Source of the DNA: a virus
IMG/VR virus record: IMGVR_UViG_3300037333_000207
Coordinates: 1 to 24,270 of that record
Length of the DNA stretch: 24,270 nucleotides
Reading direction: 5' to 3' (one strand)
Shown: one piece after another, positions 420 through 21,245 of the stretch
Numbering within the stretch: position 1 is the stretch's first letter
How the letters are laid out: each line of letters starts with the position of its first letter
The notes under the pieces: model-generated
Databases searched by the model: none
The model's input: only the letters and a program-made list of their open reading frames with translations
What the model was told of the DNA's origin: nothing
Made by a program: the position numbers and the translations under genes

Positions 420-572
420 AGATGTATTTCTCCTTTTATAAGCGATATTATGGCTATATTATGATCTATTCTGAGTGAGTCAATCAATAAGCATGATGGC
501 AAAAAAAGCAAAACAGAGTAGAGATTTACCGTGCAGAGCGAAAACCTCCTTTTCTAATAGATTTTTCTCCCT

Positions 573-652
573 GAAACACTAAAAAAAGCTAGAAACACTA
601 AAAAATATACTAGAAACACATTAGAAACACATTAGAAACACATTAGAAACAC
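573..652 (+). repeat. left iteron array, six GAAACAC copies
   Basis: GAAACAC begins at 573, 592, 613, 624, 635 and 646. The last four copies are tandem 11-bp units reading ATTAGAAACAC or close variants. The first two are spaced 19 and 21 bases, about two helical turns, so all sites would face the same side of the DNA. This is the spacing expected for cooperative binding of an initiator protein. Confidence 0.85.
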
Positions 653-808
653 TAAGATAAAATATAACAAAGCCCATAAAATAGGGCTATAAACGGATTA
701 TTTTATTAAAATCAAAAATAAAATTATAAAATGAAAAAAAAAATTTTTCAAAACGAAATACAAAAAAATATAAAAATGTGTTTTTGTCCGTAAAATAGGG
801 GTTTTTAA

Positions 809-881
809 GTGTTTCTGATAGTGTTTCAGTAGTGTTTCTGATGTGTTTCAGTAGTGTTTCTATGAATGTGTGTAGTGTTTC
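809..881 (-). repeat. right iteron array, six inverted copies
   Basis: GTGTTTC, the complement of the left iteron, begins at 809, 821, 832, 843, 854 and 875. Spacings are 12, 11, 11, 11 and 21 bases. The arrangement mirrors the left array: a dense block faces the centre and a copy about 21 bases away lies outside. The array ends 16 bases before the helicase stop codon. Confidence 0.85.
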
Positions 882-2750: not shown

Positions 2751-3782
2751 TTACTTATCCTCACTTTGTAGATAATCAACAAAATCTAAGCCACTATCAA
2801 ATTTCAAGAAGTTATCAACATTTAATCCTACTTGTAGTTTAAAGTTTTCAAATGCTTTTGCACCAGCTGCATCACCATCAAACATACAAATGATATTAAA
2901 ACCTTTAGAGTGATAGTTTCTTATGTATTGAATAAGTGCATCATCTATTTTATTTGATGAGCTCTCAAGAGTAATAAAAGGGACTGAATAGAATAGTGCG
3001 TTGAGTCCATTTTTTATACCTTCTCCAACAATGAGATACTTTTCTCTTTCTATGATTGGCTGCACTTCTTTTCTAAAAGGATATAAGAAGTTTTCACCTC
3101 TGTTATGAGAGTTTTTATAAATATATTTTGGATTGCTCCAATTTTTATATTTTTCAGGTTTGATTGGTCTATAAGCTATGAGATCTACAATTTTTCCTGT
3201 GTAATCGTAAAGTATTATGCTAGGACAATTAAAATGTTTATTCCAACCAACAAGTTTTAAAAATATATAATCTATTTTTTCTTTGTACTCAGGAGTAAAC
3301 ATTTTTGTTTCAAAAAGTTTTTGCATTTCTACAGGAACACTAAAGTGTAGTGTGTTTTCGTTTTTGTCCTGGTACTCTATTGGTCTATGTGCACCAACAA
3401 GTTTTAGTTCTTCTTGTCCCCATAACTCGAGTTTAGCAAAATCAACTTTCTTTTTCTTTTTTGCTTCTTCTTTTCTCTTTATCTGTAATGATGGATCAAT
3501 TTTATATGTATCGAGCGAACTTAACTCTTTAAGCCTTTCTATTCCAGCTTTTAAGTCGAGCTTCTCCATATACATAACTAGATCTAAGACTGATCCACCT
3601 GTAATGTTTCCGTTGAAGTCACTAAATATTTGTTTAGCTGGATTAATTGTTATACTCTTATCATTCTTATAGATAAAGTTTGCTCCAGCTTTTTTTAATT
3701 CTCCGTACATTTCTGCAACTTGTACTATGTCAAGTGATTGTTTGATTTGTTCTAGTGTGGGTTCGTTTGTAGTATTGTTCAT
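2751..3782 (-). CDS. DnaG-type primase with TOPRIM domain
   Basis: This 343-residue protein probably makes RNA primers for replication from the adjacent origin. Residues 12-88 follow the fold of the DnaG N-terminal zinc-binding domain, including NPAKQIFSDFNGNITGGSVLDLVMYME. The cysteines and histidine that normally bind zinc are absent. After a Lys-rich linker (about 102-112), the TOPRIM domain shows GEG with E254, and FDGDAAG with D302 and D304, the metal-binding acidic residues. At 343 residues it is much shorter than chromosomal DnaG and lacks the helicase-binding C-terminus. The start at 3782 has AGGAC about 8 bases upstream. The helicase follows without a gap. Primase function is well supported by the TOPRIM motifs; a pure TOPRIM nucleotidyl transferase role is less likely given the N-terminal domain. 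Confidence 0.82.
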   Translation of the reverse strand: MNNTTNEPTLEQIKQSLDIVQVAEMYGELKKAGANFIYKNDKSITINPAKQIFSDFNGNITGGSVLDLVMYMEKLDLKAGIERLKELSSLDTYKIDPSLQIKRKEEAKKKKKVDFAKLELWGQEELKLVGAHRPIEYQDKNENTLHFSVPVEMQKLFETKMFTPEYKEKIDYIFLKLVGWNKHFNCPSIILYDYTGKIVDLIAYRPIKPEKYKNWSNPKYIYKNSHNRGENFLYPFRKEVQPIIEREKYLIVGEGIKNGLNALFYSVPFITLESSSNKIDDALIQYIRNYHSKGFNIICMFDGDAAGAKAFENFKLQVGLNVDNFLKFDSGLDFVDYLQSEDK

Positions 3783-6439: not shown

Positions 6440-6778
6440 ATGCCAACAAAAGTGATAACTTCAACGGCAGAAGCATACTTTCAGTACGGTGTTTTAGGGA
6501 TAACTGTAGTTGCTTTAATGCTTATTAGTTCAGTGCTTCTCATGGCTATTTTAAAAGATAGAAAAGTGCATAAACAGTTTGCAGATGCAATCGAAAAAAG
6601 CACGGTTAATCAAAAAGAGTTTCTTATCCTCTATGAGGAAACACAAAAGAGAAATGAAGAGATACTAACTGTTTTAAAAGACACACTAAGCATTGAGAGA
6701 GAAAACACTAAAAAGTGTTATGTAGATGTTTCTAATAAACTTGACAAATTGCATTACATTATCGGTAGGAACTTGTAA
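6440..6778 (+). CDS. small membrane protein heading the tail operon (holin candidate)
   Basis: This 112-residue protein has one clear membrane helix (about 16-38, YGVLGITVVALMLISSVLLMAIL) followed by a long charged helical region (40-105) of coiled-coil character. I use ATG 6440, with AAGGAT upstream; a longer reading from TTG 6380 has no ribosome site. Its stop overlaps the start of the next gene (TAATG). First place in the late operon and the membrane helix fit a holin or another lysis or exclusion factor. Single-helix holins usually have a short, basic tail rather than such a long cytoplasmic helix, so this is only a candidate. Confidence 0.7.
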   Translation: MPTKVITSTAEAYFQYGVLGITVVALMLISSVLLMAILKDRKVHKQFADAIEKSTVNQKEFLILYEETQKRNEEILTVLKDTLSIERENTKKCYVDVSNKLDKLHYIIGRNL

Positions 6779-7350
6779 TGAATATCCAATACGGTGTAAT
6801 CATACAGTATAGATACACTTCTGATAAAGCAGGTAAAAAGCTTGAAGTTAAGTGTAATGTTGGGGAACGACCTACTGATTGGCTACCTGTAAAAACTCAA
6901 GCCTCCTCTTTTCTAAGAGTACATACTCCTGTACGAATTGGTGATCAAGTTATTGTTTTTAATCCATTCGGTGAAAATGAGAACGGTTTTGTGGATAGAA
7001 ATTTGAGCTACAAGGATATTCCACTTCCTGATGAAGCAAATGAAAATACTTATGTTGGAGTTTTTGAAGATGGTACTACTTTTTTACATGATGTACAGGC
7101 TAAAGAGATTAGCCTTAACACTCCGTGCTCAATAAACATTATAACAAATAAGCCTGTAAAGGTTGTGAGTGATAAAAATATCGACATAGAGTGCAGCGAT
7201 GCAAATATTAAAGCTAAAAATGTTGTAGTTGATAGTTCTAGCATAGATTTAGGCAAGGGTGGAGCTGGTGTTATAACTGCAGAAAGCATTTGCCCTTTTA
7301 CAGGTTCTCCACATTTAGATGAAAGTAAAAACACAAGGTCTGCAAAATGA
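6778..7350 (+). CDS. V: baseplate assembly/spike protein, P2 gpV / Mu gp45-like
   Basis: This 190-residue protein forms the central spike under the baseplate that punctures the host envelope. Residues 1-85 form the OB-fold, with MNIQYGVIIQYRY, LRVHTPVRIGDQVIVFNPFGE and GFVDRNLS, the usual gpV hallmarks. Residues 105-165 consist of short alternating beta repeats (ISLNTPCSINIITNKPVKVVS and similar), typical of the triple-stranded beta-helix needle. The C-terminus reads GGAGVITAESICPFTGSPH, a common ending in the gpV family. It is coupled to the preceding gene (TAATG) and followed by the W-J-I baseplate genes, the P2 order. Confidence 0.88.
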   Translation: MNIQYGVIIQYRYTSDKAGKKLEVKCNVGERPTDWLPVKTQASSFLRVHTPVRIGDQVIVFNPFGENENGFVDRNLSYKDIPLPDEANENTYVGVFEDGTTFLHDVQAKEISLNTPCSINIITNKPVKVVSDKNIDIECSDANIKAKNVVVDSSSIDLGKGGAGVITAESICPFTGSPHLDESKNTRSAK

Positions 7351-7532
7351 TTAGTGAATCTTCACTTAAAGCAAAGATTGAATCTAATATGAAAAATTGT
7401 GGTTTTGTTATGACAAAACAAAACAAATGTTTAGCAGCTTCTATTGCAAAAGCTGTAGTTGATGAGATAACACAAAATGCTCAAGTTGTTGTAGCAGGTG
7501 GTTCATCAAGTGGTACATACAAGGTTTCATGA
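7347..7532 (+). CDS. small hypothetical protein of the baseplate cluster
   Basis: This 61-residue protein lies between the V and W genes and overlaps both (4 bases each side), so it is clearly part of the translated operon. It reads as one amphipathic helical domain (SSLKAKIESNMKNCGFVMTKQNKCLAASIAKAVVDEI) with a Gly/Ser-rich C-terminal tail, VVAGGSSSGTYKVS. I know of no P2 equivalent at this position. It might be a small spike tip or assembly factor, but no motif supports a specific role. Confidence 0.75.
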   Translation: MISESSLKAKIESNMKNCGFVMTKQNKCLAASIAKAVVDEITQNAQVVVAGGSSSGTYKVS

Positions 7533-7825
7533 TGGGTTTTTATGCTGTAAGTATTGAAGATAGTTTTAAAGATGCTCTTATGACACCAAAAGGGAGTGTT
7601 ATTGGTAAACCTGAATATGGAACTAACCTATTTGAGTTAAAACATAAGCCATTTAATAGTGAGTGGTTGATTGATTTTCGTAGATGTTTAAAAGATGCCT
7701 GTAAGCATGATGAGAGATTAAAATTTAAAGGTGCTGATATAAGTTCTTTAGATGAGCAGAATAGTTTAGTTTCTTATGTTGTTTACATAAAAAACAATGT
7801 GATAAGAGGAGTTGTGAATGTATGA
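7529..7825 (+). CDS. W: baseplate wedge protein, P2 gpW / T4 gp25-like
   Basis: This 98-residue protein (97 if the second ATG is used) belongs to the GPW/gp25 family that joins the baseplate wedge to the sheath. Visible hallmarks are an N-terminal SIEDSFKDALMTPKGSVIGKPEYGTNLFEL, where MTP-x-GS-x-x-G-x-PEYG is characteristic, followed by a helix with FRRCLKDACKHDERL and a C-terminal beta-strand pair. Two ATGs are adjacent at 7529 and 7532. The gene overlaps the end of the preceding small gene and the start of the J-like gene, which argues for coupled translation of the baseplate set. Confidence 0.92.
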   Translation: MMGFYAVSIEDSFKDALMTPKGSVIGKPEYGTNLFELKHKPFNSEWLIDFRRCLKDACKHDERLKFKGADISSLDEQNSLVSYVVYIKNNVIRGVVNV

Positions 7826-8921
7826 AAAAATAGAAAAAGAACTCCTTTCTCTACAAGAACCTTTAGTTTTTAGTTTAAAAAGTTTTGATGAGTTGTTGAA
7901 TGAGAATATTGCATTAGCAAAAGATGTACTAGGTGAAGATTGGATTCCTCTTGAGAGTGATCCATATATGAAAAAACTTAGAGTGCTTACTTTAAGACAA
8001 TTACACAATCAGGCAGATAAAAAAGAAACTGTTAAACAACTACTTTTAACAACTGCAACAGGTGCAAATTTAGACAATCTTGGAGCAAGTGAAAATGTTT
8101 TTCGAGATGCAGGTGAGTACCCTTATACAAACTTTGAGTTTAAATTATTAGTAGAGAGTAAAAGTGAAATAGTTATACCAGCTGGACTTATTTTAAGTGA
8201 TGAAACAAAAGAACACCATGCGAAAGTGGTAGAGAGTGTTTCTATTGCTCCTGGTATGTTGAGCTGTATTGTAAAAGTTGAATTGCAAGAATTTGTTGAA
8301 GAGAGCGAAGTAAAAACAGAAAAAATAGTTACTGATCTTCCTTTTGCACTTGAAATAAAACAGCTAGATGCTTTTAAACATGGTGCAAGTGCAGAGAGTG
8401 ATGATAGATACCGTTTAAGAATTATTGCTTCTAAAGATAGATATGCAACGGCAGGTAGTAAAGAGGCTTATATTTATCATGCTGTAAGTGCAGATAGTCG
8501 AATCGATGACATAGTAGTTCTTGATGAGAAAGTTCTTGAAGTCAATATTTACATCGCTTCTTTTAGTGGTGTAGATAGTTCTATGATTAAACGAGTTGAA
8601 GAGGCTTGTAATAAGAGATATGTTCGCCCTCTTGGTGATAGAGTTATTGTAAAAGCAGCAGAGATACTAGAACTTAAACTATCTGCAACGATAGAGGTTT
8701 TTGATTTGTTGAAACAGTATGAGATTGAAAAATCTATAAGAGAGAATTTCAGTAATTCTTTTTTTATTGGTCAAGATTTTGTACGAAGCGATTTTATTCG
8801 TAAGTGCCATATAGATGGTGTTTATCGTGTTGATACAGATTTTAAAGATGTGATAGTAAGCGATAAACAGATTATTAAGATTGCATCATTAACTTTGGTA
8901 TTTAAAGAGGCTTCATTATGA
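7818..8921 (+). CDS. J: baseplate J-like protein, P2 gpJ
   Basis: This 367-residue protein is the main baseplate wedge component, which links the central hub to the tail fibres. The N-terminal region (about 60-100) reads LRQLHNQADKKETVKQLLLTTATGANLDNLGAS, the usual start of the J-like fold. The central jelly-roll reads VIPAGLILSDETKEHHAKVVESVSIAPG. The C-terminal part contains DDRYRLRI, DRYATAGSKEAYIYHAVSAD and RPLGDRVIVKAAE, all typical. Length is close to P2 gpJ relatives. It overlaps W by 8 bases and the I-like gene by 4. Confidence 0.93.
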   Translation: MYEKIEKELLSLQEPLVFSLKSFDELLNENIALAKDVLGEDWIPLESDPYMKKLRVLTLRQLHNQADKKETVKQLLLTTATGANLDNLGASENVFRDAGEYPYTNFEFKLLVESKSEIVIPAGLILSDETKEHHAKVVESVSIAPGMLSCIVKVELQEFVEESEVKTEKIVTDLPFALEIKQLDAFKHGASAESDDRYRLRIIASKDRYATAGSKEAYIYHAVSADSRIDDIVVLDEKVLEVNIYIASFSGVDSSMIKRVEEACNKRYVRPLGDRVIVKAAEILELKLSATIEVFDLLKQYEIEKSIRENFSNSFFIGQDFVRSDFIRKCHIDGVYRVDTDFKDVIVSDKQIIKIASLTLVFKEASL

Positions 8922-9520
8922 GTTTATTACCAAAAAACAGCACATTGCAAGATCAGGACTTTGCAAAAATCATAGATTCTCAATCTGTTTTAGATTTTAG
9001 TGATATTAGTTTTGATCCTATGGTTTGTGATGCTTCTTTGTTGCCTCATATTGCTTTTATGATTGGTGCAAATATTGACAACATGGAAGAGGATGAGGCT
9101 CGTCTTTATTTAAAAACATATAACAGAAAATTACTTGGAACTGTTGGAGCTGTTGAAGATGCTGCAAGAGTTTATTTTGATAATGCACAGATTATAGAGT
9201 GGTTTGAAGATAAAGAACTTGAAAAAGGTTATTTTTCTCTTTTTATAGATGTAAAAGATGACACAAGATTTTATAACTTAAAAACTGTTCATAAAGCAGT
9301 TCGTGAGATGAGAAAAAACAAGAATGTAAGAAGCCAACTATCACACATACACATGAGTTATGTGCAAGAGCAAGATTTTTCTCTCTCTAGTGGATGTGTT
9401 GCTGAGGCAGATGTTGATGTTTCAATGGTTGGTGGTTACAAAGAAACACTTACAAATGATTTTTTACCGCATCATGGATGTGTTTGTGAATCGTTTTGTG
9501 AAATTAAGATGGAGAGATAA
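8918..9520 (+). CDS. I: tail protein I, P2 gpI-like
   Basis: This 200-residue protein is the P2 gpI-type baseplate component that connects the wedge to the fibre. It starts MSLLPKNSTLQDQDFAKI and contains the family features LLPHIAFMIGANIDNMEEDEARLYLKTYNRKLLGTVGAVEDA, where the GT-x-GAVE motif is diagnostic. The C-terminal part has a Cys-rich tail (SSGCVAEADVDVS, HHGCVCESFCEIKM), which is unusual and might be a metal or disulfide site. It overlaps J and is followed immediately by the fibre genes, as in P2. Confidence 0.9.
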   Translation: MSLLPKNSTLQDQDFAKIIDSQSVLDFSDISFDPMVCDASLLPHIAFMIGANIDNMEEDEARLYLKTYNRKLLGTVGAVEDAARVYFDNAQIIEWFEDKELEKGYFSLFIDVKDDTRFYNLKTVHKAVREMRKNKNVRSQLSHIHMSYVQEQDFSLSSGCVAEADVDVSMVGGYKETLTNDFLPHHGCVCESFCEIKMER

Positions 9521-10204
9521 ATGAGCAGTATTGTAACTAAAGATGGTATTCATGCTTTTATAAAAGCGAGTGAAACAGGTAAAAAGCTACAACCAAAGTA
9601 TTTTATATTTAGCGATAAAGAGATTAAGATAGATCCAAATGTAAGTGCTAAAGATTTTCATGGTTGGAAGAAACAAGATATTAACCAATATCAAAAAATT
9701 AATGATGAAACTTTAGAGTTTATTTGTGATGTGAAGCCTGATGAAGCAAAACACTACACTAAGTCAGTAGGTCTTTTTTTAGAAGATGGCACTCTTTTTA
9801 TGATTGCAAAGCCACCTTATCCATTCCCTCCATCTTTAAGACAAACAATAAAGATACAACTCAAGTACCAAAATGCGAACAATCTTATGAGCTTGGATTA
9901 TATCTCGTGGAGTGAAGAGGAGCAAAGTCTTGCTGCACTTGATACTGCTTTAGCTTTAGGTTTTGAAACTATGGAGAGTGCAGAGGATTATGGCTTAAAA
10001 GATAAAAAGTTTTTGGAGGTGTGTAGTGATGTTGTTAGCCTGAAAGATAATGCAAAGAGAAATAATGCTGCGATCTCTTCTTTAGAGGAGAATGTACACA
10101 ATGCACACTTAGGTGTAATAGAAAATAGTTTGTCTTTAGGAATTGAAATTTTAGAAAATTCCGAAGAGATAGGCTTAATTAAACAAAAAATTGGAGGAAA
10201 ATAG
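9521..10204 (+). CDS. tail fibre N-terminal (baseplate-attachment) protein
   Basis: This 227-residue protein corresponds to the N-terminal attachment part of P2 gpH-type tail fibres (tail-collar fibre domain). It begins SSIVTKDGIHAFIKASETGKKLQPKYFIFSDKEI and contains GLFLEDGTLFMIAKPPYPFPPSLRQTIKIQLKYQNANNL, close to the usual gpH motif around KP-x-x-P. The C-terminal third has two copies of a short repeat, ALGFETMESAEDYGL and SLGIEILENSEEIGL, possibly a trimerisation or joining element. The gene stops where P2 gpH would continue, and a separate fibre gene follows, so the fibre appears to be built from two polypeptides. The ATG follows GGAGAG directly after the I-like stop. Confidence 0.82.
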   Translation: MSSIVTKDGIHAFIKASETGKKLQPKYFIFSDKEIKIDPNVSAKDFHGWKKQDINQYQKINDETLEFICDVKPDEAKHYTKSVGLFLEDGTLFMIAKPPYPFPPSLRQTIKIQLKYQNANNLMSLDYISWSEEEQSLAALDTALALGFETMESAEDYGLKDKKFLEVCSDVVSLKDNAKRNNAAISSLEENVHNAHLGVIENSLSLGIEILENSEEIGLIKQKIGGK

Positions 10205-10205
10205 T

Positions 10206-11330
10206 ATGGATTTAAATGCCTTACAACAAAAGATAAACAGTTATACAACTGTAGTTAGTAGCTGGGTGAAGAATGTAGGAAAGATTTACTTTGATTCGAA
10301 ACCAGCAGTAGTAAAAGTGAAAATGTTAGATGATCATGGGAAAGTTGTAGATGTAAGCATTCCAAACATCGCAAAAGTTAAAGCAGATTTTGATGCTAAG
10401 AAAAAGTTTACTCATTCTATGGGTATTGGTGTAGATCCAAGTGGAAATCTGAATAACGGTAAAGGTTTAGCTCTTGGTGACAATGATACAGGGTTCCGTC
10501 AAAATGGTGATGGGAATTTGGAAGTTTTTGCAAATAACAGAATGGTTGCAAGATTTAAAAGTGATGGAATTCATTCTGATAGAGAATTTTATTATACAAA
10601 TTGGATTCGTAATGTTAGAGAAACTGCTAGTGGTCTTTATTGGCACAATTCAAAAAATCCAGGTTACAGATGGCATATCTATCCACAAAATCAAGCAGAT
10701 ATGACATTGCGAACAGGAAAAGGCAACGGTGGTATTAAAGGTACTATTGAGAATGAAACTGCTCGTGGTTATGTTCATTGGACCACAGGAAATCAAATCG
10801 GCTTTTTGAATAATCTTCGTCAATGGGCTTTAAAAATTTCATCAAACAAAAGTGCAACTTTTTATGGTGATATTTTGATGAGCAAATCAAACCCTTTCAT
10901 CAATTTTAATGACTCAACAGATGCTGGTGTTGATGTTGCGATTGGTGTTAGTGGAGACAATTTTTACATCCGTGAGCCAGAAGATAAAGGCAAAGAGTGG
11001 TTTAGAATTGAAGATGATAAAGATGCTTATATCTTTGGTAACAAAGTGAATCATCGTGGAAATGTAAAGTTTTACAGTGGTTCAGTAAAAGCAGACAAAA
11101 GTGGTGGAACAGGATTTATTTCTCCTCCTAGTGGATATTCTATTGGGAATTTAAGAGCAGTTGTTGTTTCACCTAGAATTATTTATTTTAATGGTGATGT
11201 TGATAAAAATGACACTCTTATTTGTAGAGTAACTTCAAATAATGACAATGGAAAAATTAAAGTTGAATGTAGGAATTCAGAGCAGCGTGGTGCAGCTTAT
11301 TTTAACTTTTTAACAATATGGAGTAAATAA
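10206..11330 (+). CDS. distal tail fibre protein, receptor binding
   Basis: This 374-residue protein is probably the distal fibre that recognises the host surface. I use ATG 10206, with GGAGG 8 bases upstream; a TTG reading from 10191 would include the ribosome site. After a helical start (MDLNALQQKINSY), residues 75-110 read GLALGDNDTGFRQNGDGNLEVFANNRMVARF, the motif of T4 gp37-type long tail fibre shafts. The body is beta-rich with many Gly/Asn/Trp, and the C-terminal domain (about 290-374) may bind the receptor. No chaperone-cleavage motif is evident. The stop overlaps the start of the next gene (TAATG). Confidence 0.82.
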   Translation: MDLNALQQKINSYTTVVSSWVKNVGKIYFDSKPAVVKVKMLDDHGKVVDVSIPNIAKVKADFDAKKKFTHSMGIGVDPSGNLNNGKGLALGDNDTGFRQNGDGNLEVFANNRMVARFKSDGIHSDREFYYTNWIRNVRETASGLYWHNSKNPGYRWHIYPQNQADMTLRTGKGNGGIKGTIENETARGYVHWTTGNQIGFLNNLRQWALKISSNKSATFYGDILMSKSNPFINFNDSTDAGVDVAIGVSGDNFYIREPEDKGKEWFRIEDDKDAYIFGNKVNHRGNVKFYSGSVKADKSGGTGFISPPSGYSIGNLRAVVVSPRIIYFNGDVDKNDTLICRVTSNNDNGKIKVECRNSEQRGAAYFNFLTIWSK

Positions 11331-12064
11331 TGGAAAATGAAGTTTTAGAAGAAAATGTAGAGATGGAAGAGATTGTTGCAACTGCTGAAGAAGCTAAAGA
11401 AGTTGTTGATGATTCAAAAAAAGATGTTGCTCATTTGGAAGAGCCTGTAAAACCTGAAATCAAAGAGGATGATACAGAGGGGATTTTCTTTCTATTAGGT
11501 GGAGAGAATAACGAAGAGATTGTTGGTATTGTTGATAGTAAAACAGATGATGCAAATTGTGTTCTTTCTCCTCTTGAAAATATCGACTATACAGTTCTTG
11601 GTAAGTTGTTTGTAAATGGAAAAATTGAGGATAAACCTCTAAGTGAAGAAGAGATGAAAGAGGAATCACTTTCAAAACTTCAAACACTATGCGATAAAAA
11701 ATCGGTTGAAGCAAAAACTTACATCAACGGTGGGTATGTATCTGCTGAGCAACTTGCTCGTTATGAGGAAAAACTCAAAATGGCACAAGCTTTCTTAACT
11801 GATGGTAGTTATGAGAGTGTTCTTGCATTAGAAGCAGAGATTCAAGGTGTAAGTGTAGAGGATTTAGCAAAAGCGATCGTTGCAAAAGGTGCAGCATACG
11901 AAAATGCTCTTTTATCTTTCAATGCAAAAATTGAAGCTTTTAGAGTAAGTGTAAATAAAATCATTGAGCAAAAACAGTTTGAAACTGCAAATGCAATCAT
12001 AGAGAAAGCTTATGCACTTGGTGCAGGTGCTACAGATGCTGATATAAAAGCATTATTTGAATAG
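11330..12064 (+). CDS. probable tail fibre assembly protein
   Basis: This 244-residue protein lies exactly where P2 has the fibre assembly gene G. The N-terminal 55 residues are very acidic (many Glu/Asp/Val), which suggests a disordered tail. The middle (60-110) is a small beta domain. The C-terminal half is helical, with LSKLQTLCDKKSVEAKTYINGGYVSAEQLARYEEKLKMAQAFL, resembling the helical C-terminal domain (DUF4376-like) of many fibre assembly chaperones. The assignment rests on position and this resemblance. An alternative is a fibre-associated structural protein. ATG overlaps the fibre stop. Confidence 0.6.
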   Translation: MENEVLEENVEMEEIVATAEEAKEVVDDSKKDVAHLEEPVKPEIKEDDTEGIFFLLGGENNEEIVGIVDSKTDDANCVLSPLENIDYTVLGKLFVNGKIEDKPLSEEEMKEESLSKLQTLCDKKSVEAKTYINGGYVSAEQLARYEEKLKMAQAFLTDGSYESVLALEAEIQGVSVEDLAKAIVAKGAAYENALLSFNAKIEAFRVSVNKIIEQKQFETANAIIEKAYALGAGATDADIKALFE

Positions 12065-12075
12065 GAGGCTGAATT

Positions 12076-13263
12076 ATGCCAGGAATAAAAGTTTTAGAAA
12101 CTAAAAATGCAAGTGCAACTGCAACAATTGTCACATCTACAACTGTTATAGGTGTTGTTGGGTCTGCTTCTTTAGATTCTTTGTCTAAAGAAGTAAAAGA
12201 GAAACTAAGCGATAAATCTCAAGCTGGGATGCTTCGCTTTTCAAATGCAGAGGCAGCATTAAAAGAGTTTGAAAAGGCAGAGGGAACAATCAGAGAAGAT
12301 CTCTATGATATTCAAGCTCAAAATGTTAAATCACCTGTAATTATCTCTCTAGTGGAGTATAAAAAAGAGTACAAAGGTAAAACTCCTCAATCTTTTTATG
12401 GTGATAGTAAATTTAAAAGTGCAATTGTCAATGCGATTGGAAATTTGAAAAAAACTCGTGTTGTGTTTAGTGAGAAAGTTCGTATCTCTATCGCTTCATA
12501 TTTTTCTCATGATACAACTGTTAGAAATGCACTTGATAGTTTAGCAGCTGCTACAAAAACAATAGCAATAGTTGATATGCACGAATCAAATGTAAATGAT
12601 GCGATTAAACATTTAAAAGCTCTTGGTTCACAAAGATATTTAGCATTTCCTTTTTATAGAAAAACTTGGTCTGTATTTGAAAATAAGAGTGTTTTAAAAC
12701 CAAACTCTGCAATTGTTGCAGGGCATATTGCAAAAGAAGATGCAAAGATTGGTGAATTTGGTCCGTGTTTTGATCATGCAAATAAACTCATTTATGATGT
12801 AGAGGGTGTTGCGATTCCTCTTACATACGAAGAGGGTGAAGACACTTGCGAGGTAAATACACTTGTAAATGCTGGAGGAGCTCTTCTTCTAAACGATGAT
12901 GGGAACCGTTTGTATAACTATGAGTCACCAAGTGATGATGCTCGTTTCAACAAGCTTGAGACGATTCGTTTTTTTGATTTGATTAATGAGAATCTTCAAA
13001 AATCTCTAAAAAAGCACAAACACCGTCCTATGACAGAAGTTCTTGTTCTTGCAAAAGCTGATGCCGAAGCATTTTTAAATAGAGCAATTCGTGCTGGTGC
13101 AGCTATTGGTGCAAAAGTTTGGTGGTCTGATAAAAACTCTCCAGAAGAGATTGCAGCAGGAAACCTATATATGGATTTTGATGCAGGTAACAATGTTGGA
13201 GTTCGTTCAATCGTTATCCAGCCTTATGCAACAAATGATTACTACACTTTGGAGGTTAAATAA
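12076..13263 (+). CDS. FI: contractile tail sheath protein, P2 gpFI
   Basis: This 395-residue protein is the sheath subunit that contracts around the tail tube. It begins MPGIKVLETKNASATATIVTSTTVIGVVGSA, the normal sheath N-terminus. The middle shows SPVIISLVEYKKE and RYLAFPFYRKTW, and the C-terminal part NRLYNYESPSDDARFNKLETIRFFDLINENL, GAAIGAKVWWSDKNSPEEIAAGNLYMDFDAG and a final strand, as in P2 FI. Length matches the family. AGGAGG stands 10 bases before the ATG, giving the strong ribosome site expected for a major structural protein. The stop overlaps FII (TAATG). Confidence 0.95.
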   Translation: MPGIKVLETKNASATATIVTSTTVIGVVGSASLDSLSKEVKEKLSDKSQAGMLRFSNAEAALKEFEKAEGTIREDLYDIQAQNVKSPVIISLVEYKKEYKGKTPQSFYGDSKFKSAIVNAIGNLKKTRVVFSEKVRISIASYFSHDTTVRNALDSLAAATKTIAIVDMHESNVNDAIKHLKALGSQRYLAFPFYRKTWSVFENKSVLKPNSAIVAGHIAKEDAKIGEFGPCFDHANKLIYDVEGVAIPLTYEEGEDTCEVNTLVNAGGALLLNDDGNRLYNYESPSDDARFNKLETIRFFDLINENLQKSLKKHKHRPMTEVLVLAKADAEAFLNRAIRAGAAIGAKVWWSDKNSPEEIAAGNLYMDFDAGNNVGVRSIVIQPYATNDYYTLEVK

Positions 13264-13739
13264 TGACTAAGCAAGGATTAGGAGCAGATGCTCAACTGCT
13301 TACAGGGCTTTCTATTATGATTGGTGGGAAAAATACTTTCGGCTATACAGGTGATGGTACAAAGCCACCTGAGTTTGAGTTTGAAACTGTAAATGAACAA
13401 AGTACAGGGATTGTAAAACAACCAAAAATGACACTTGAAGTTTTAGATCTCAATCCTTTGTATGTAACACATATAGCAAGTGGATTGCCTTTTGTACTAA
13501 AAGGGAACACTCGTAAAGATGGTGAGGACAAACCTCTTCTTGTTACAGTTCAAGGAACTCTTTTAAAAATGAGTGGAGAGCTAAAAGAGGGTGATGCCAC
13601 AAAAAGAACTTTCGAGCTTCGTGTAGATATGTACAACGAGCTTGTAGATGGATTACCTGGTATTGTTTACACTCGTGAACCGTATAACATCATTCTTGGT
13701 GGTGTGCCAATGGCACCAAATTTTTCAAATAATGTTTAG
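13263..13739 (+). CDS. FII: major tail tube protein, P2 gpFII
   Basis: This 158-residue protein is the tail tube subunit that stacks inside the sheath. Features of the FII family include the N-terminal region GLSIMIGGKNTFGYTG, the PPEFEFETVNEQSTGIVKQPKMTLEVLDLNP segment and DGLPGIVYTREPYNIILGGVPM near the C-terminus. Its length agrees with P2 FII (about 170 residues). It is coupled to the sheath gene by a TAATG overlap and followed after 10 bases by the E gene, the standard order. Confidence 0.93.
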   Translation: MTKQGLGADAQLLTGLSIMIGGKNTFGYTGDGTKPPEFEFETVNEQSTGIVKQPKMTLEVLDLNPLYVTHIASGLPFVLKGNTRKDGEDKPLLVTVQGTLLKMSGELKEGDATKRTFELRVDMYNELVDGLPGIVYTREPYNIILGGVPMAPNFSNNV

Positions 13740-13749
13740 GAGGTAGTTT

Positions 13750-14055
13750 ATGGAAAATCTATATGAAACAAGAGAAGTAGTTTTAAGTCGTGCTTACCCT
13801 TTTGGGGATAAAAAGAAAGCAAAAGTTCGTGGAAAAGTTAAAGAAGTGAGTGTTTTAAAAGTGCATGAGCTCAATGGTTATGATGATGAGCAGCTGCTAA
13901 AAGTTGGTACTCCTACGGTTTATGATGAAATTGCAATCTCTTGTGGTTTAACAGTTGAAGATGCAAAAAGTCTTTCTCGTGCTGATGCAAGACTTGTTCA
14001 AGAGGTGCTTAACGATTTTTTATACGCTTCGGTGGAAGTAGAGCTGATAGACTAG
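13750..14055 (+). CDS. E: tail assembly chaperone, gpE-like (unshifted product)
   Basis: This 101-residue protein is the short form of the tail assembly chaperone (P2 gpE / Mu gp41 type), which helps the tape measure protein and tube subunits assemble. It reads ETREVVLSRAYPFGDKKKAKVRG in its N-terminal part, followed by VSVLKVHELNGYDDEQLLKVGTPTVYDEIAISCGLTVEDAKSLSRADARLVQEVLNDFL, characteristic of the Mu gp41/tail assembly family. AGGAGG precedes the ATG at a good distance. The gene contains a slippery heptamer at 14016-14022 that produces the longer E-E' protein. Confidence 0.88.
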   Translation: MENLYETREVVLSRAYPFGDKKKAKVRGKVKEVSVLKVHELNGYDDEQLLKVGTPTVYDEIAISCGLTVEDAKSLSRADARLVQEVLNDFLYASVEVELID

Positions 14056-14198
14056 AGGCTTATAGTCTTGTTAATGAGTTTTTTTCTCTAACAGTTAAAG
14101 AACAAAAAGAGATGAGCATAAATGAGTGGAGTGAGTATCTCAAGGTTGCTTTAGATAAGCATGAGAGAAAGCTAAAACTATTTTCCCTACCTGAGTAG
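13750..14198 (+). CDS. tail assembly chaperone gpE-E', made by -1 ribosomal frameshift
   Basis: In the -1 frame after 14022, an open frame of 58 codons runs past the E stop to TAG at 14196-14198. Slippage at T TTT TTA (14016-14022) would join it to E, giving a protein of about 149 residues. The E' part reads FGGSRADRLEAYSLVNEFFSL and continues with NEWSEYLKVALDKHERKLKLF; it has no start codon of its own with a ribosome site. P2 E+E' and lambda G/GT use the same arrangement, in the same place just before the tape measure gene. The frame shows coding-type composition and ends shortly before the next gene, which supports real use. Confidence 0.85.
14016..14022 (+). other. -1 frameshift slippery heptamer T TTT TTA
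   Basis: In the E frame the codons are GAT TTT TTA, so bases 14016-14022 read T TTT TTA in the exact X XXY YYZ register. Both tRNAs can re-pair after slipping back one base. Confidence 0.88.
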
Positions 14199-14242
14199 GT
14201 TGGCTTAGCTGTAAAACAAAAAAATACAAAAAAGGAAAAACT

Positions 14243-14572
14243 ATGGCAAATGCACTAGATAGTTTAAATTTAAAAGAGCAAGTTGATGCGATTGCAGCAT
14301 CTTTAAAAGCAGAGGGTGTAGAGGTTACTAAAACTATCATCGATAAGATTTTAGACAAACAAAGATCTCTTGGTTTTAATGCACTTGTTGCTCACAAAGC
14401 AATCAAATGGCAAGACTTCGGAACTCTTGAAGTTCATAGTCATGCTGAGAGACCGTACAAAGTTCCAGATGGTAAAGGTGGTTTTCTTGAGGGTAAAATT
14501 CCTGCTGGTTACCATGTTAAGTTTGTTGAATCTAAAAAACTTTTAGATGCACTCAACAATGTAAAAGCATAG
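14243..14572 (+). CDS. divergent HU/IHF-like DNA-binding protein in the tail operon
   Basis: This 109-residue protein ends with a region that follows the HU/IHF fold: ALVAHKAIKWQDFGTLEVHSHAERPYKVPDGKGGFLEGKIPAGYHVKFVESKKLLDALN (about 47-105). The segments FGTLEV and KIPAGYHVKF-x-x-SKKLLDAL correspond to FGTFEV and IPASK-x-x-x-F-x-PGKALKDAV of HU. The N-terminal part is a helical segment, slightly longer than in HU. AAGGAA precedes the ATG. It lies between E' and the tape measure gene, where P2 has no gene. It could bend or coat phage DNA, or the fold may be used structurally in the tail. The fold resemblance is clear by eye; the function is open. Confidence 0.65.
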   Translation: MANALDSLNLKEQVDAIAASLKAEGVEVTKTIIDKILDKQRSLGFNALVAHKAIKWQDFGTLEVHSHAERPYKVPDGKGGFLEGKIPAGYHVKFVESKKLLDALNNVKA

Positions 14573-14659
14573 TAGGAGATATATTCTCCTGCTAAAGCAC
14601 TTTTAGAGCTTCTTTTTAGAGGTTTTATAAAGTGATTTAATAAAAAAAAGAGGTATGAA

Positions 14660-16942
14660 ATGGGCATCGGTGCAGTAAGCCTTAACATGGTGTGGAATCC
14701 AGCAATTAAGGGATCAAATTTTTTACAAGCGAGTGTAAAAGGGATTCATACTTATGCAGTAAAGGTAACAAAAGCAAATTTACTTCAAAGCACAAAGTTT
14801 TCTCTTCTTAACAGAAATCTCAAGCAGTTAGATAATCATTTGGGGCATATAAGAAAGCAAACTGCAAAGATAAGTGCTAATCCTATCAAGTTAGATATAG
14901 AAACTTCTCGAACATCTTTAAAAGAAGCTCGTAAGGATATGACTGCAATTGAGCACGATGCTAAACAAGTTGCTTTTTATACAAAAAAGGCAAGTGAAAA
15001 TTTACAAGCTGGTGTAAATAGTTATAGATCTCAAGTTCAAAACAAAAATGTACCAGCGAGTAAATATTCTTCACATCATTCTGTTACTTCTACAGTTGTT
15101 GCAGGTGTTACAGTTGCAAGTGTTTTAACATTGCCTTTTAAAGCAAGTATAGACTTTGAGAGCAAGATGGCAAGGGTTAAAGCTATAAGTGGTGCTACTG
15201 ATTCGGAATTTAAAGCTTTAAATTCTACGGCATTGCAACTTGGAAAATCGACTGAGTGGTCTGCTGGAAGTGTTGCTGAGGGTATGCAATTTTTAACAAT
15301 GGCAGGATTTAATGCAAAACAAACAATAAGTGCTATTCCTGGTCTTTTGAGTTTGGCGACTGCTGGTGCTACTGATTTGGCAACTACTTCTGATATAGCT
15401 TCTAATATTATGGGTGGTTTTAGTATTGATCCAAAAAGCACAATAAATGGTATGGCTGCAATGAATTATGTAAGTGATGTACTTGCAAAGACAATAACAT
15501 CTGCAAATGTTGATATACGAATGCTTGGTGATACTATGCAATATGTTGCTCCTGTTGCAAAAACTGCTGGTATGAGTTTACAGGAAACTGCTGCGATGGC
15601 TGGGCTTCTTGGAAATATAGGAATACAGGGGAGTATGGCAGGTACAACATTAAAAAGCATGTTGACACGATTAGCTGCACCACCAACAGAAGCAAAAAAA
15701 GCATTGTTAGCTTTGGGTGTGACAACAAAAGATTTAAAAGGAAATTTAAAAAGTGTACCTCTTATTTTAGCAGAGGTTTCTAAAGCAACTCGAGGAATGG
15801 GAAATGCAAAACAATTAGAATATATGTCAAAAATATTTGGTTTGGAGCCTATGGCAGGAGCTTCTAAACTTGTTGAATTATCAGGAAAAGGAAAATTACA
15901 AGATTATATAAAAATTGTTAATGATTACAAAGGGACAGCACAAAAAATAGCAGATATTCAGTTGGCTTCTACTGCTGGACAATTTAAACTTTTGAGTTCT
16001 GCAATGGAGGGGCTTAGCATATCTGCTACTACAGGATTACTTCCAACTATTCAAATGGTAACAAATGGATTGACAAGTGCAGCTAGTGCAGTGAGTGATT
16101 TTACTGCAAAATATCCTGAAGCTTCTAAGTGGGTTTTTGGTCTCGGTGCTGCTTTTGTAGCAGGTAGTATTGCTTTAGCTGGTTTTGGCATTGTTGCAAG
16201 TGGTGTAGCAGCTGCTATTGGTTTTATATCTCTTCCTGTAGTTGCTGTTATTGCAGGTGTAACTGCTTTAGTTGCTGCTGGTGTAGCACTTTATAAAAAT
16301 TGGGACACAATAAAAACAAAAGCTGGTCTTGTTTGGAGTTCAATATCTCAAAGTATAAAAAAACCTTTCGTTGGTGTTTTTGAGTGGATAGAGAGCAAGT
16401 TCTTAAAAGTAATGAAGATAAAAGATTCAATATCTAGTTTTTTTGGCTTTGGAGATGATAAAGAGAAAAAAGAGAAAACAATTCATGCAAATGTACTACA
16501 ACCTGCAAATAATATCTCAAGCAAAACAGAAAAGAAAGAGAGTAGTTTCTTCGCTAGTGTTAAGGAGTTCTTTCATTTTAAATCAGATACAAAAAGCACA
16601 ATAGTACCAGGACAAAACAAAACTGTTCATGCAGGAGTTATTCAACCTGCAAACAATGTAACTTTAAGATCTACTCTTTTAAAAGATAGAGCTATAAAAG
16701 AAGTTCCATTACCTCGAGTTAGTGAAGTTACAAATAGAGTAATACAAGAGAAACAAACACTTATGCAAGAGAGAAATAATTCTACAATACAAGGAGTGCA
16801 GCAAACTATTACAAATCATATAACTGTTCATGCAGCAGAAAATGGTCAAGTTGATTATGAGGATTTAAAAGAGAAAATCTCTCGAGCTCAAAGAGAGTTA
16901 GCAGAGGAAGAGCAACACTTGCAAATGCAAGATGTATCTTAA
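14660..16942 (+). CDS. T: tail tape measure protein, P2 gpT-like
   Basis: This 760-residue protein sets tail length and is ejected ahead of the DNA. Residues about 170-270 carry the core of the TIGR01760 tape measure family: DFESKMARVKAISGATDSEF, LGKSTEWSAGSVAEGMQFLTMAGFNAKQ and ASNIMGGF. The 300-400 region (NIGIQGSMAGTTLKSMLTRLAAPPTEAKKAL) belongs to the same family. Residues about 490-550 are strongly hydrophobic (several membrane-like helices), as in other tape measures. The C-terminal part has two related segments, TIHANVLQPANNIS and TVHAGVIQPANNVT, and ends in a charged coiled coil. It is the longest gene in the window and follows E/E' and the HU-like gene. Confidence 0.93.
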   Translation: MGIGAVSLNMVWNPAIKGSNFLQASVKGIHTYAVKVTKANLLQSTKFSLLNRNLKQLDNHLGHIRKQTAKISANPIKLDIETSRTSLKEARKDMTAIEHDAKQVAFYTKKASENLQAGVNSYRSQVQNKNVPASKYSSHHSVTSTVVAGVTVASVLTLPFKASIDFESKMARVKAISGATDSEFKALNSTALQLGKSTEWSAGSVAEGMQFLTMAGFNAKQTISAIPGLLSLATAGATDLATTSDIASNIMGGFSIDPKSTINGMAAMNYVSDVLAKTITSANVDIRMLGDTMQYVAPVAKTAGMSLQETAAMAGLLGNIGIQGSMAGTTLKSMLTRLAAPPTEAKKALLALGVTTKDLKGNLKSVPLILAEVSKATRGMGNAKQLEYMSKIFGLEPMAGASKLVELSGKGKLQDYIKIVNDYKGTAQKIADIQLASTAGQFKLLSSAMEGLSISATTGLLPTIQMVTNGLTSAASAVSDFTAKYPEASKWVFGLGAAFVAGSIALAGFGIVASGVAAAIGFISLPVVAVIAGVTALVAAGVALYKNWDTIKTKAGLVWSSISQSIKKPFVGVFEWIESKFLKVMKIKDSISSFFGFGDDKEKKEKTIHANVLQPANNISSKTEKKESSFFASVKEFFHFKSDTKSTIVPGQNKTVHAGVIQPANNVTLRSTLLKDRAIKEVPLPRVSEVTNRVIQEKQTLMQERNNSTIQGVQQTITNHITVHAAENGQVDYEDLKEKISRAQRELAEEEQHLQMQDVS

Positions 16943-16957
16943 AAAAGGAGTTAAAAA

Positions 16958-17179
16958 GTGAAAATATCAAAAGCAGTTTTAGAGGTGAGTGAATTAAAAG
17001 CTCATTTGGCAGATGAGAGTAATTCTTATCTTTACAAGAAAGAGGATGATGACAGCATAACTTGTTATATGTGCTGCGATTTTGATGTGATTGATTGTAG
17101 TGAGATAGTTTTTTCAGGTAGTTGTGGAAATGGTATTAATTACAATAAAAATAGAGATGAACTTAGGAGAGTAGATTGA
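16958..17179 (+). CDS. small hypothetical protein, Cys-rich
   Basis: This 73-residue protein starts with GTG at 16958, 7 bases after a strong AAGGAG. It is acidic, with LADESNSYLYKKEDDDSITCYMCCDFDVIDCSEIVFSGSCG holding five cysteines in a short beta-rich region. The cysteines could form a metal site or disulfides. Its stop overlaps the next start (TGATG). I do not recognise a family. The good ribosome site and tight packing in the operon argue that it is translated. Confidence 0.7.
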   Translation: MKISKAVLEVSELKAHLADESNSYLYKKEDDDSITCYMCCDFDVIDCSEIVFSGSCGNGINYNKNRDELRRVD

Positions 17180-17682
17180 TGAAAAAAATATTTTTTATTT
17201 TGGTGTTTATGGTTTCAGTTGTTTTTGCAAATGAGTGGGAAATTGCAAAGGTTAAATATGTAAGTGATGGTGACACCTTATGGTTACAAAAAGGGAATGA
17301 AAAACCTTTTAAAGTTCGTTTGGTTGGAATAGATACTTTTGAAACAAAAGTTAATCATAGGGTGTTTATGCAGTTAGAAACATTAAAAAAACTTCATTAC
17401 AAGAGTAAAAATACAGTTAAAAAAGTGCTTTATTTTGGGTTTAAAGCAAAAGACTATGTAACGAAAAGATATTTACATAAAACAGTTAAATATCATTCCT
17501 ATGGTAAAGATAAGTATGGAAGAGAACTTGTTTGGATTGACACTCTTAACTTTTCTCTTGTTCGTCAAGGTTTGGCAGTTTATTATCCAAACAATCTTAT
17601 AGACAAAGGAAGGAAAGCTTATTTGTTAGAGCTTAGTAAAGATGCGAATCTTCATAAAAGAGGGATTTATGCGAGGTACTAA
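17179..17682 (+). CDS. secreted staphylococcal-nuclease-like thermonuclease
   Basis: This 167-residue protein has a signal peptide (MKKIFFILVFMVSVVFA, cleavage likely before NEWE) and one SNase domain. The catalytic set is complete: Arg47, Asp52 and Glu55 in VRLVGIDTFET, with the same spacing as R35/D40/E43 of staphylococcal nuclease, plus Arg115 in DKYGRELVWI. DGDTLWL (about 30-36) is the other usual hallmark. It should cut DNA or RNA in the periplasm or outside, with Ca2+. I start at ATG 17179, which overlaps the previous stop; a TTG just upstream is less likely. Its place among tail genes is atypical for P2 and suggests a cargo gene. Confidence 0.88.
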   Translation: MKKIFFILVFMVSVVFANEWEIAKVKYVSDGDTLWLQKGNEKPFKVRLVGIDTFETKVNHRVFMQLETLKKLHYKSKNTVKKVLYFGFKAKDYVTKRYLHKTVKYHSYGKDKYGRELVWIDTLNFSLVRQGLAVYYPNNLIDKGRKAYLLELSKDANLHKRGIYARY

Positions 17683-18087
17683 ATGGCTCTTTTAAATGAT
17701 TTAATAAGTGGCATGGATATGGGAAAGATAGGTGATTTTAAATTTTACATGAATAAAAATGACTATCAAAAACTATCTAAAACACTTAAAGTAACATTTG
17801 GAAGCTATAAGCCTGTAAGAGGACAAGAGAGGCTAAGTGATAGTGGTGGCTTTGAGCGAACCATTGCACTTAGTGGTGTTTTGGTTGTACAACCACAAGA
17901 TGCACTTAAAGTATTAGAGGATTATGCAGAGAATCGTGAACCTTTGGAGTTTACAACATTAAGAGATAGCTATGAGATTGTTATCACATCATTAGGTGTT
18001 ACTCAAACTCACTTTATTGATAATGGGGATTTTACTGTGCAAGAGTATTCTCTTACTCTAAAAGAGGTTTATGATGAGCTTGTATAG
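17683..18087 (+). CDS. U: tail completion protein, P2 gpU-like
   Basis: This 134-residue protein fits the P2 gpU family, which caps the tail at its head-proximal end. Features are the pattern MGKIGDFKFYMNKNDYQKLSKTLKVTFGSYKPVRGQERLSDSGGFERTIALSGVLVV, followed by PLEFTTLRDSYEIVITSLGVTQTHFIDNGDFTVQEYSLTLKEV. The DNGDF and F-x-LTLKEV pieces are typical. It starts directly after the nuclease stop and overlaps the X-like gene by 17 bases. The following X and D genes confirm the P2 order T-U-X-D. Confidence 0.9.
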   Translation: MALLNDLISGMDMGKIGDFKFYMNKNDYQKLSKTLKVTFGSYKPVRGQERLSDSGGFERTIALSGVLVVQPQDALKVLEDYAENREPLEFTTLRDSYEIVITSLGVTQTHFIDNGDFTVQEYSLTLKEVYDELV

Positions 18088-18286
18088 AACAAAAGATGGT
18101 GATCGCATTGATTTGATTGTTCTTGAGCATTATGGAAATTTGAATCATCTTAATGATGTTTTGAGCTTAAATACTTTTTTGTTTAATCTTCCTTTAGATT
18201 TAAAAGCTGGTTTAGATATAGATCTCCCAGATTTTACAGAAGAGGTAGTGAAAGAAACTAAAAATGAAAGAGGTCCACTATGGTAA
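18071..18286 (+). CDS. X: tail protein X, P2 gpX-like
   Basis: This 71-residue protein belongs to the gpX family, whose LysM-like fold helps tail assembly. It reads YRTKDGDRIDLIVLEHYGNLNHLNDVLSLNTFL, the usual D-x-x-D-x-I-x-x-x-YG start, and LDIDLPDF near the C-terminus. Two ATGs are adjacent (18071, 18074). It overlaps both the U and the D genes. Confidence 0.9.
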   Translation: MMSLYRTKDGDRIDLIVLEHYGNLNHLNDVLSLNTFLFNLPLDLKAGLDIDLPDFTEEVVKETKNERGPLW

Positions 18287-19215
18287 ATGATGTTATAGAA
18301 CTTACAATAGATGGTGTTAATGTAAAAATAGAAGATGTTTTAAGTCTTAGTTTTAATGATGCAGCTGGAGTAAAAAGTGACAAGGTAACTTTGAGTGTTA
18401 TGCCAAATTTTCCAAAACCAAAACCAAGTGCAAAGCTTGAGCTTATATTTAAAACATTTAAAGATGGTAATGAGCTGGAATCTTTAAACTGTGGTTTGTT
18501 TCATGTTCAAACTGTGGTTAGAAAGGATGTAAAACTTTTGAGTTTTACTGCTACAGGTGTAGAATTTAATGACAAACAGAAGATAAAGCTTTCTAATCAT
18601 TATCAGGGTACTAAATTATCATCAATAGTTCAGATTGTGGCAGATAGATTGGGGCATAAGGTTAAATTTCAAACAGATGATGTTGATATAAAATCTCTCA
18701 ATCAAACAAATGAGAGCGATATAAATTTTCTTAACCGATTGGCACAAACTTATAATTGTTTGTTTTCAATCAAAAATGATTACATCTATTTTGTAGATAA
18801 AGATGATGGATCTCTTCCTGTAACAAAAATAGATGTAAGTAAGTGTAAATCATCTTCTATAAAACATTCTACTAAAACTTACTATAAATCATGTGAAGCG
18901 AGTTGGCATGATATTGATAGTGGAAAGATTAAAAAAGTTACTTTTGGAGATGGTTCACCTGTACTAAAAATTGATGGTTCTTACATTGATGAGAATGATG
19001 CTTTAGCAAAAGCGAAAGCAAAGTTAAAAAGTATAAACAAGGGAACTGTTAGTGGATCTCTTTCTCTAAAAGGTAGAGAGATTTATGCAGGTACAAAAGT
19101 AGAGCTTGTAAATACATATAACAACGAAGATGATGGAGTTTATAGTGTAGTTAGCTGCACACATAGATATACCATTAAAAATGGTTGGATTGTAGATGTT
19201 GAGATAGAAAACTAA
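18280..19215 (+). CDS. D: tail protein D, P2 gpD-like (baseplate hub)
   Basis: This 311-residue protein is the P2 gpD/T4 gp27-type hub of the baseplate, on which the V spike is mounted. Family features include the N-terminal beta-sandwich (DDVIELTIDGVNVKIEDVLSLSFNDAAG-like), VKLLSFTATGVEF, LSSIVQIVADRLGHKVKF, NESDINFLNRLAQTYNCLFSIKNDYIYFVDK and a C-terminal region with KSINKGTVSGSLSLKGREIYAGTKVELV. Length is close to P2 gpD. It overlaps X by 7 bases and is the last recognised tail gene of the operon. Confidence 0.92.
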   Translation: MVNDVIELTIDGVNVKIEDVLSLSFNDAAGVKSDKVTLSVMPNFPKPKPSAKLELIFKTFKDGNELESLNCGLFHVQTVVRKDVKLLSFTATGVEFNDKQKIKLSNHYQGTKLSSIVQIVADRLGHKVKFQTDDVDIKSLNQTNESDINFLNRLAQTYNCLFSIKNDYIYFVDKDDGSLPVTKIDVSKCKSSSIKHSTKTYYKSCEASWHDIDSGKIKKVTFGDGSPVLKIDGSYIDENDALAKAKAKLKSINKGTVSGSLSLKGREIYAGTKVELVNTYNNEDDGVYSVVSCTHRYTIKNGWIVDVEIEN

Positions 19216-19626
19216 ATGAAAGGATGGAGAGTGAAGGCAGGTTTTAGAACTAAAGAGGTTTTGTTAAGTGTTCCACAAAGTGGAGATATTAGAACATTAA
19301 AGAGTGAACTTGTTTATTTAACAGAGAAGCCACGAAAGCAGATGCTTTTAGTCCCTAGTGAGATTAAAACAGATTTAGGAAGTATTCCTCAAGCTTTGCA
19401 GGGGATTTTCCCAAAAGACGGAAAAGCAATGTTTGCCTATATTCTCCATGATTATTTATATCAAGTTGGAATGTTTAGTAGAGGCGAAACAGATGCAATA
19501 CTAGAAGAGGCAATGAAATCTCTTGGTGTTAGTCTTTGGAGAAGAAAATCTGTGCGAATTGGTTTAGCACTTGGTGGCTGGAAAGCCTGGAATGAATGGA
19601 GAAAATTAAATGGAGAAAATAAATGA
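19216..19626 (+). CDS. DUF1353-family phage protein
   Basis: This 136-residue protein resembles the DUF1353 family found in many phages. The match rests on VPSEIKTDLGSIPQALQGIFPKDGKAMFAYILHDYLYQVGMFSRGETDAILEEAMKSLGV, where T-D-x-x-SIP, HDYLY and R-x-x-x-D-x-x-x are the conserved parts. Conserved Asp and His residues look like a metal or catalytic site, but no activity is established to my knowledge. It starts directly behind the D gene and overlaps the lipoprotein gene by 4 bases, so it belongs to the late operon, near the lysis genes. Confidence 0.75.
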   Translation: MKGWRVKAGFRTKEVLLSVPQSGDIRTLKSELVYLTEKPRKQMLLVPSEIKTDLGSIPQALQGIFPKDGKAMFAYILHDYLYQVGMFSRGETDAILEEAMKSLGVSLWRRKSVRIGLALGGWKAWNEWRKLNGENK

Positions 19627-19865
19627 AAAACTTATTTCTTTTAATAGGTGTATTACTATTTAGTGGATGTGTAACTGATAAGCCTTATGCAGTTGGTAAA
19701 GTTATTTATAAAAGTGCAAGAACTGCTTATATAGAGCTACCTCTTCCAGCAAATGGAACACTAGAGAATGTAGATACGGTTTTAGTGCAGTATGATAAAG
19801 TTCGTTCAGGTGTAAAAGAGGTTTTAGCTAAAAAAAAAGAAGAGGGTGCGAGTACTTCACAGTAA
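19623..19865 (+). CDS. small lipoprotein, candidate spanin subunit
   Basis: This 80-residue protein has a lipoprotein signal peptide MKNLFLLIGVLLFSGC, with Cys16 as the lipid-attached residue. The mature part is short, with YAVGKVIYKSARTAYIELPLPANGTLENVDTVLVQYDKVRSGVKEV and a Lys/Glu-rich end. It stands directly before the endolysin gene, so an outer-membrane spanin (Rz1-like) role in disrupting the outer membrane at lysis is plausible. A matching inner-membrane spanin is not obvious nearby. An alternative is a lipoprotein for superinfection exclusion. Confidence 0.75.
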   Translation: MKNLFLLIGVLLFSGCVTDKPYAVGKVIYKSARTAYIELPLPANGTLENVDTVLVQYDKVRSGVKEVLAKKKEEGASTSQ

Positions 19866-19897
19866 GTGGGTACTTAGTAGAATGTTGGTGGTGAATA

Positions 19898-21244: not shown

Positions 21245-21245
21245 A

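Follow-up and report, generated by a model that had tools for sequence, protein, structure and literature searches.

Between the small orfL gene and a helicase gene of this viral replicon lie two arrays of short repeats, which raise the question whether they form an origin of replication and which protein would read them. The window analyzed here, the whole stretch of 24,270 nucleotides of the IMG/VR record IMGVR_UViG_3300037333_000207, contains 12 exact copies of GAAACAC in 310 bp, six on each strand, grouped in two arms facing each other across an AT-rich core. Copies start at positions 573, 592, 613, 624, 635 and 646 on the plus strand and at 809, 821, 832, 843, 854 and 875 on the minus strand. 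Between positions 501 and 950, where 12 of the 16 copies of the whole window are located, 1000 dinucleotide shuffles gave a mean of 0.08 copies and a maximum of 2. The AT content is 81.4% in the core (156 bp) and 67.6% in the window as a whole; the 120-bp segments richest in AT of the entire 24 kb begin at 657–697, inside the core. A preliminary description of two opposed six-iteron arrays around an AT-rich core is thus confirmed.

Iteron steps in both arms are all close to whole helical turns. The left arm shows two wide gaps (19 and 21 bp), the right arm one (21 bp) and, towards the core, a step of 12 bp. The arms are therefore alike in number and helical rhythm, but they are not exact mirrors: of the mirror symmetry claimed before, copy number, orientation and helical rhythm hold, whereas the order of the gaps does not. 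A palindrome is found at the left inner edge of the core and a degenerate copy at the right (Table 1). In the relatives G001 and G003 the right element is the clean palindrome CCCTAtataTAGGG, and YCCC-N8-GGGR elements are present at the inner edges in most relatives. We rejected the inner palindromes as a universal feature, G008 and G014 being without them.

Table 1. Positions of the repeat arms, the core and the main genes in the window.
Feature	Position	Strand	Basis or detail
orfL, small protein gene between origin and left end, cut by window edge	3–419	−	
Left iteron arm	573–652	+	six GAAACAC, gaps 19, 21, 11, 11, 11
AT-rich core, likely melting region (predicted)	653–808		81.4% AT
Left inner-edge palindrome AGCCC(ataaaata)GGGCT	671–688		
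Right inner-edge element GTCCGTAAAATAGGGG, degenerate copy of the left palindrome	786–801		
Right iteron arm	809–881	−	six GAAACAC, gaps 12, 11, 11, 11, 21
DUF5906 SF3-type helicase, proposed initiator, 617 aa	897–2750	−	PF19263, E 6.5e-21
Helicase C-terminal domain, residues 465–617, proposed iteron reader	897–1358	−	AlphaFold2 model
CHC2/Toprim (DnaG-type) primase	2751–3782	−	PF01807, E 3.5e-8
ParA-like partition ATPase	22398–23009	−	PF01656, E 1.9e-5 (just under curated cut-off); phrog_164, E 1.2e-9
Telomere resolvase (protelomerase, ResT/TelK), 5' end cut by window edge	23010–24269	−	PF16684, E 1e-11

Relatives were collected by searches with the helicase and the resolvase, which yielded contigs from IMG/VR as well as two MAGs of Campylobacterota, labelled Sulfurimonas and Helicobacteraceae, respectively; a search of a plasmid database returned no relative. 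The replicon is taken to belong to Sulfurimonas-like bacteria. Six relatives (G001, G002, G007, G010, G011 and G014) measure 24.9–27.5 kb and reach both ends or nearly so, and G013 (27.7 kb) lacks the left end. The common gene order is orfL, origin, helicase, primase, repressor, tail genes, ParA and resolvase. In all relatives covering the region two opposed arms surround an AT-rich core beside the same helicase; the origins of G003 and G013 are seen in part only because they are cut by the contig end. Most relatives show gaps of 18/19, 21, 11, 11, 11 and 12, 11, 11, 11, 20/21 bp and an arm-to-arm distance of 158–163 bp, with G008, G012 and G014 deviating in gaps or distance. The comparison supports the expected conservation of the two-armed structure beside the primase-helicase pair, and none of the relatives covering the origin region keeps this pair while missing the arrays.

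The repeat itself changes between genomes: GAAACAC in the window is replaced by a mixed form, AAAAACAC, in G002, by GGAAYAC in G007 and G010 and by GGAACG/GGAACAC in G008 and G012. Arms of the same genome were more alike than in any of 5000 shuffled pairings (0.152 versus a mean of 0.258, in a test that ignores phylogeny). Since the repeat changes jointly in both arms, one protein probably reads both, and any shared cause of the likeness would still imply a single reader for the two arms.

A candidate for this protein is encoded next to the arrays. The right arm ends 15 bp from the stop codon of the helicase gene, and the origin lies directly 3' of this gene here as well as in the relatives. 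Helicase and primase genes adjoin the origin, the primase being of the DnaG type and not an AEP. Helicase residues 226–472 match the NrS-1 primase-helicase structures 6k9c/6k9e/6lrb (E 8e-21). As the fold obtained for the full-length helicase was too poor (pLDDT 60), we modelled the C-terminal 153 residues instead, which gave a pLDDT of 86.5 and a pTM of 0.78. The model shows the order helix-strand-helix-helix-strand-strand, that of a winged helix, and had no Foldseek match at E≤0.001 among PDB and viral models. We also looked in each protein for residues changing with the repeat type (GAAAC versus GGAAC). None of the proteins near the origin stood out, the helicase included; signals in tail genes and the resolvase were set aside because of the few sequences and the relatedness behind them. 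The comparison with the relatives favors the helicase as the likeliest iteron binder, one of the candidates named in the preliminary description.

Genes for two HTH proteins and a CI-like repressor lie close to the primase gene, and the arrays could accordingly be operators through which phage-type HTH proteins control orfL and the helicase operon. We give this hardly any credence: the helicase operon begins some 2–4 kb away and runs towards the arrays, the start of orfL lies about 150 bp outside the left arm, and no HTH4923 was detected in two relatives that keep both arms, G006 and G014. Furthermore, 12 sites at fixed helical spacing with an AT-rich core of conserved length go far beyond the needs of an operator. 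OrfL is present in every relative that covers its place.

The replicon also encodes a ParA accompanied by an RHH-like protein (22087–23009), and an Arc-like RHH gene is located in the replication operon. RHH proteins often bind short repeat arrays. The arrays might thus be, or double as, a partition site (centromere) for an RHH/ParB-like protein, with the origin located elsewhere. This is unlikely, since the arrays adjoin the helicase gene, with the ParA operon some 21 kb away, and the Arc-like RHH was not detected (ORFs ≥60 aa, E≤1e-4) in G006, G008 and G011, which keep the arrays. In addition, arrays also lie next to distant DUF5906 helicases in other kinds of elements.

The position of the arrays has to be seen in relation to the ends of the replicon. 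The window stops short of its own ends, but in its relatives these can be observed: fold-back palindromes occur at contig ends of G001, G002, G004, G007, G009 and G011. Both palindromes of G002 are 104 bp long and the left one of G011 98 bp, those of the others being shorter. Such ends are the product expected from reads through closed hairpins. Together with the resolvase, which scores above the PF16684 cut-off in six relatives, they indicate a replicon of the hairpin linear type, as had been supposed before. No integrase was seen among the ORFs searched, and the complete relatives end in hairpins and encode a resolvase; judged by its genes, the element would not be classed with whole-element PICIs, integrated islands with an integrase and an att site. 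If the contig ends of the relatives are taken as telomeres, the origin is located about 0.6–1.5 kb from the left telomere. Of the suggested linear replicon with an internal origin, the linear setting therefore stands, while the origin lies close to one end. The coding-strand GC3 skew is higher for plus-strand than for minus-strand genes near the origin in six of the seven near-complete replicons, G013 being without signal; this is a weak hint of rightward forks from the left end, confounded by gene strand. Resolvases of G002 and G014 are 30–36% identical to that of the window and their helicases 61–71%, which suggests that the telomere module and the replication module are exchanged independently of each other.

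Near most covered ends of G001, G002, G007, G010, G011 and G014 the sequence TTATTCACAT occurs two to three times, and in the replicons checked it is found nowhere else. It presumably resembles the DnaA boxes of the host phylum. Replication could hence start from these subtelomeric boxes, leaving the arrays a regulatory function only, in copy-number control or handcuffing. We regard this as very unlikely: the self-encoded helicase, the primase and the iteron-flanked AT-rich core would already make up a complete initiation set, and the end repeats could equally serve the resolvase or partition.

We therefore consider it probable that arrays and core form a PICI-type origin of a hairpin linear Campylobacterota plasmid carrying a contractile-tail operon, with the winged helix of the helicase as the binder. 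The C-terminal winged helix would bind the iterons of both arms, and as iterons are about one or two helical turns apart, the bound sites would face one way. The bound helicases would then melt the AT-rich core, and one hexamer would be loaded per strand, one helicase from each arm, in opposite directions. With the plasmid's own primase priming both forks, these would continue around the hairpin ends, producing a circle of double length that the telomere resolvase would cut back into two linear copies.

Individual features of this proposed origin are known from other systems. N15-type telomere phages and the hairpin replicons of Borrelia and Agrobacterium share the telomere resolvase and the closed hairpin ends. 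N15, however, encodes a head, and its replication origin lies within repA, whereas the origin here is intergenic and near one end, and head genes were not found in the ORFs searched. Iterons combined with hairpins for the plasmid primase in RSF1010 oriV and opposed repeats around a melting region in archaeal ORB origins are analogies only, the initiators being unrelated to that of the window. The alpha protein of phage P4 is a helicase that also binds iterons at its own origin, as is proposed here for the DUF5906 helicase; unlike the latter, alpha is a fused primase-helicase, and the two repeat regions of P4 (ori/crr) are far apart. The paper PMC6092414 deals with P4 and its ori. The NrS-1 primase-helicase (6k9c, 6lrb), the closest solved structure to the helicase core, likewise has repeats 3' of its gene, but NrS-1 uses a prim-pol and its AAGTGTA repeats form several mixed clusters rather than two clean arms.

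The closest likeness is to phage-inducible chromosomal islands such as EcCICFT073 and to SaPIbov1 and SaPI5, in which primase and helicase-initiator are followed by an origin with two iteron sets and an AT-rich region (PMC6092414, PMC7581432). PICI origins carry two sets of iterons around an AT-rich region 3' of rep, and a fragment with primase and origin is stably kept in plasmid form (PMC6092414). In SaPI Rep and Cch2 it is the C-terminal domain that binds the iterons (PMC7581432), and for PICI and SaPI/SCCmec helicases an initiator sitting on the iterons, perhaps as two hexamers, opens the AT-rich region (PMC6092414, PMC7581432). The layout had been set against the single tandem array usual for iteron origins; given these publications, it is not without precedent. 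What is known is the PICI-type origin; what is new, as far as the literature searched shows, is its setting on a hairpin linear plasmid instead of an integrated island, together with several features of its own. The primase is a separate DnaG-type enzyme, while in PICIs it is fused or an AEP; six plus six repeats at fixed spacing form two clean arms, while EcCICFT073 mixes orientations; and palindromes are present at the inner edges. When the profiles of the helicase and of EcCICFT073 pri-rep were compared, similarity outside DUF5906 was not significant, so the kinship between the two is based on this shared domain.

Repeat arrays were also found beside other DUF5906 helicases. EcCICFT073 pri-rep carries DUF5906, and TCTACC repeats occur in both orientations 3' of its gene. 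In phage S1 the DUF5906 gene is followed directly on its 3' side by opposed CCGCACA-type repeats, five in one array and six in the other, with no AT-rich core. Among 399 genomes of the host's order the helicase profile matched eight, seven of them distantly. Of these seven, L049 (E 1e-42) is a DUF5906 helicase of a Campylobacterota integrative element that encodes a tyrosine integrase and a TrwB-type coupling protein, with tRNA-Ser nearby. Beside it, six TGCCACA repeats in forward orientation on one side and opposed repeats on the other enclose an AT-rich core, with a CCCTA..TAGGG element at either edge of the core; the repeat is wholly unlike that of the window, whereas the inner-edge elements are similar. 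Also among the seven, L053 shows two opposed pairs of repeats, L054 mixed clusters with a pattern identical to that of phage NrS-1 and L051 arrays in one direction only, and no clear array was seen at the homologues L050, L130, L131 and L133. L056 (8350–10600), an integrase/TrwB element, has a two-armed array of a different repeat on the upstream (5') side of its DUF5906 helicase.

The occurrence of arrays at the side of DUF5906 in hairpin plasmids, phages and an integrative element suggests that this type of origin follows the helicase and not a satellite lifestyle. Tentatively, and with somewhat more doubt than confidence, two-armed helicase-bound origins may be a general class across satellites, phages, integrative elements and hairpin plasmids, which here would copy a headless-tail tailocin plasmid, one helicase per arm giving two-way replication beside the telomere.

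A more surprising fact nearby than the origin itself is what the hairpin plasmid carries. Positions 6778–20329 are occupied by a complete-looking contractile-tail operon with an endolysin, comprising genes for spike, W, J, I, fibres, sheath, tape measure, U, X and D, and the operon is also present on G001, G002, G007, G010, G011, G013 and G014. Head, portal and terminase genes, which would mark a contractile-tailed phage, had no match among the ORFs of the window and those ORFs of G001 without a counterpart in it, in a search that could miss distant or very small head genes; on this gene content the element would not be counted as such a phage. In a search with the telomere pattern for a head-bearing partner replicon, the one further contig that could be assigned is the right half of a member of the same family. 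The tail operon without head genes may represent a tailocin borne by a telomere plasmid. The window further contains a thermonuclease-like protein (17176–17682) and a DNA adenine methyltransferase (20453–21244), both kept in most relatives, and a tRNA-Gly (gcc) gene (21245–21327, minus strand).

In the openly licensed literature searched, neither such an origin nor a hairpin plasmid with tail genes only was found to be reported for Campylobacterota. About 12 natural versions of the origin exist in which the repeat sequence is changed and the geometry kept, which makes the recognition of iterons by the helicase and the role of the two arms directly testable. The analysis also predicts the origin of a family of linear replicons that seemingly exists to carry a phage-tail weapon.
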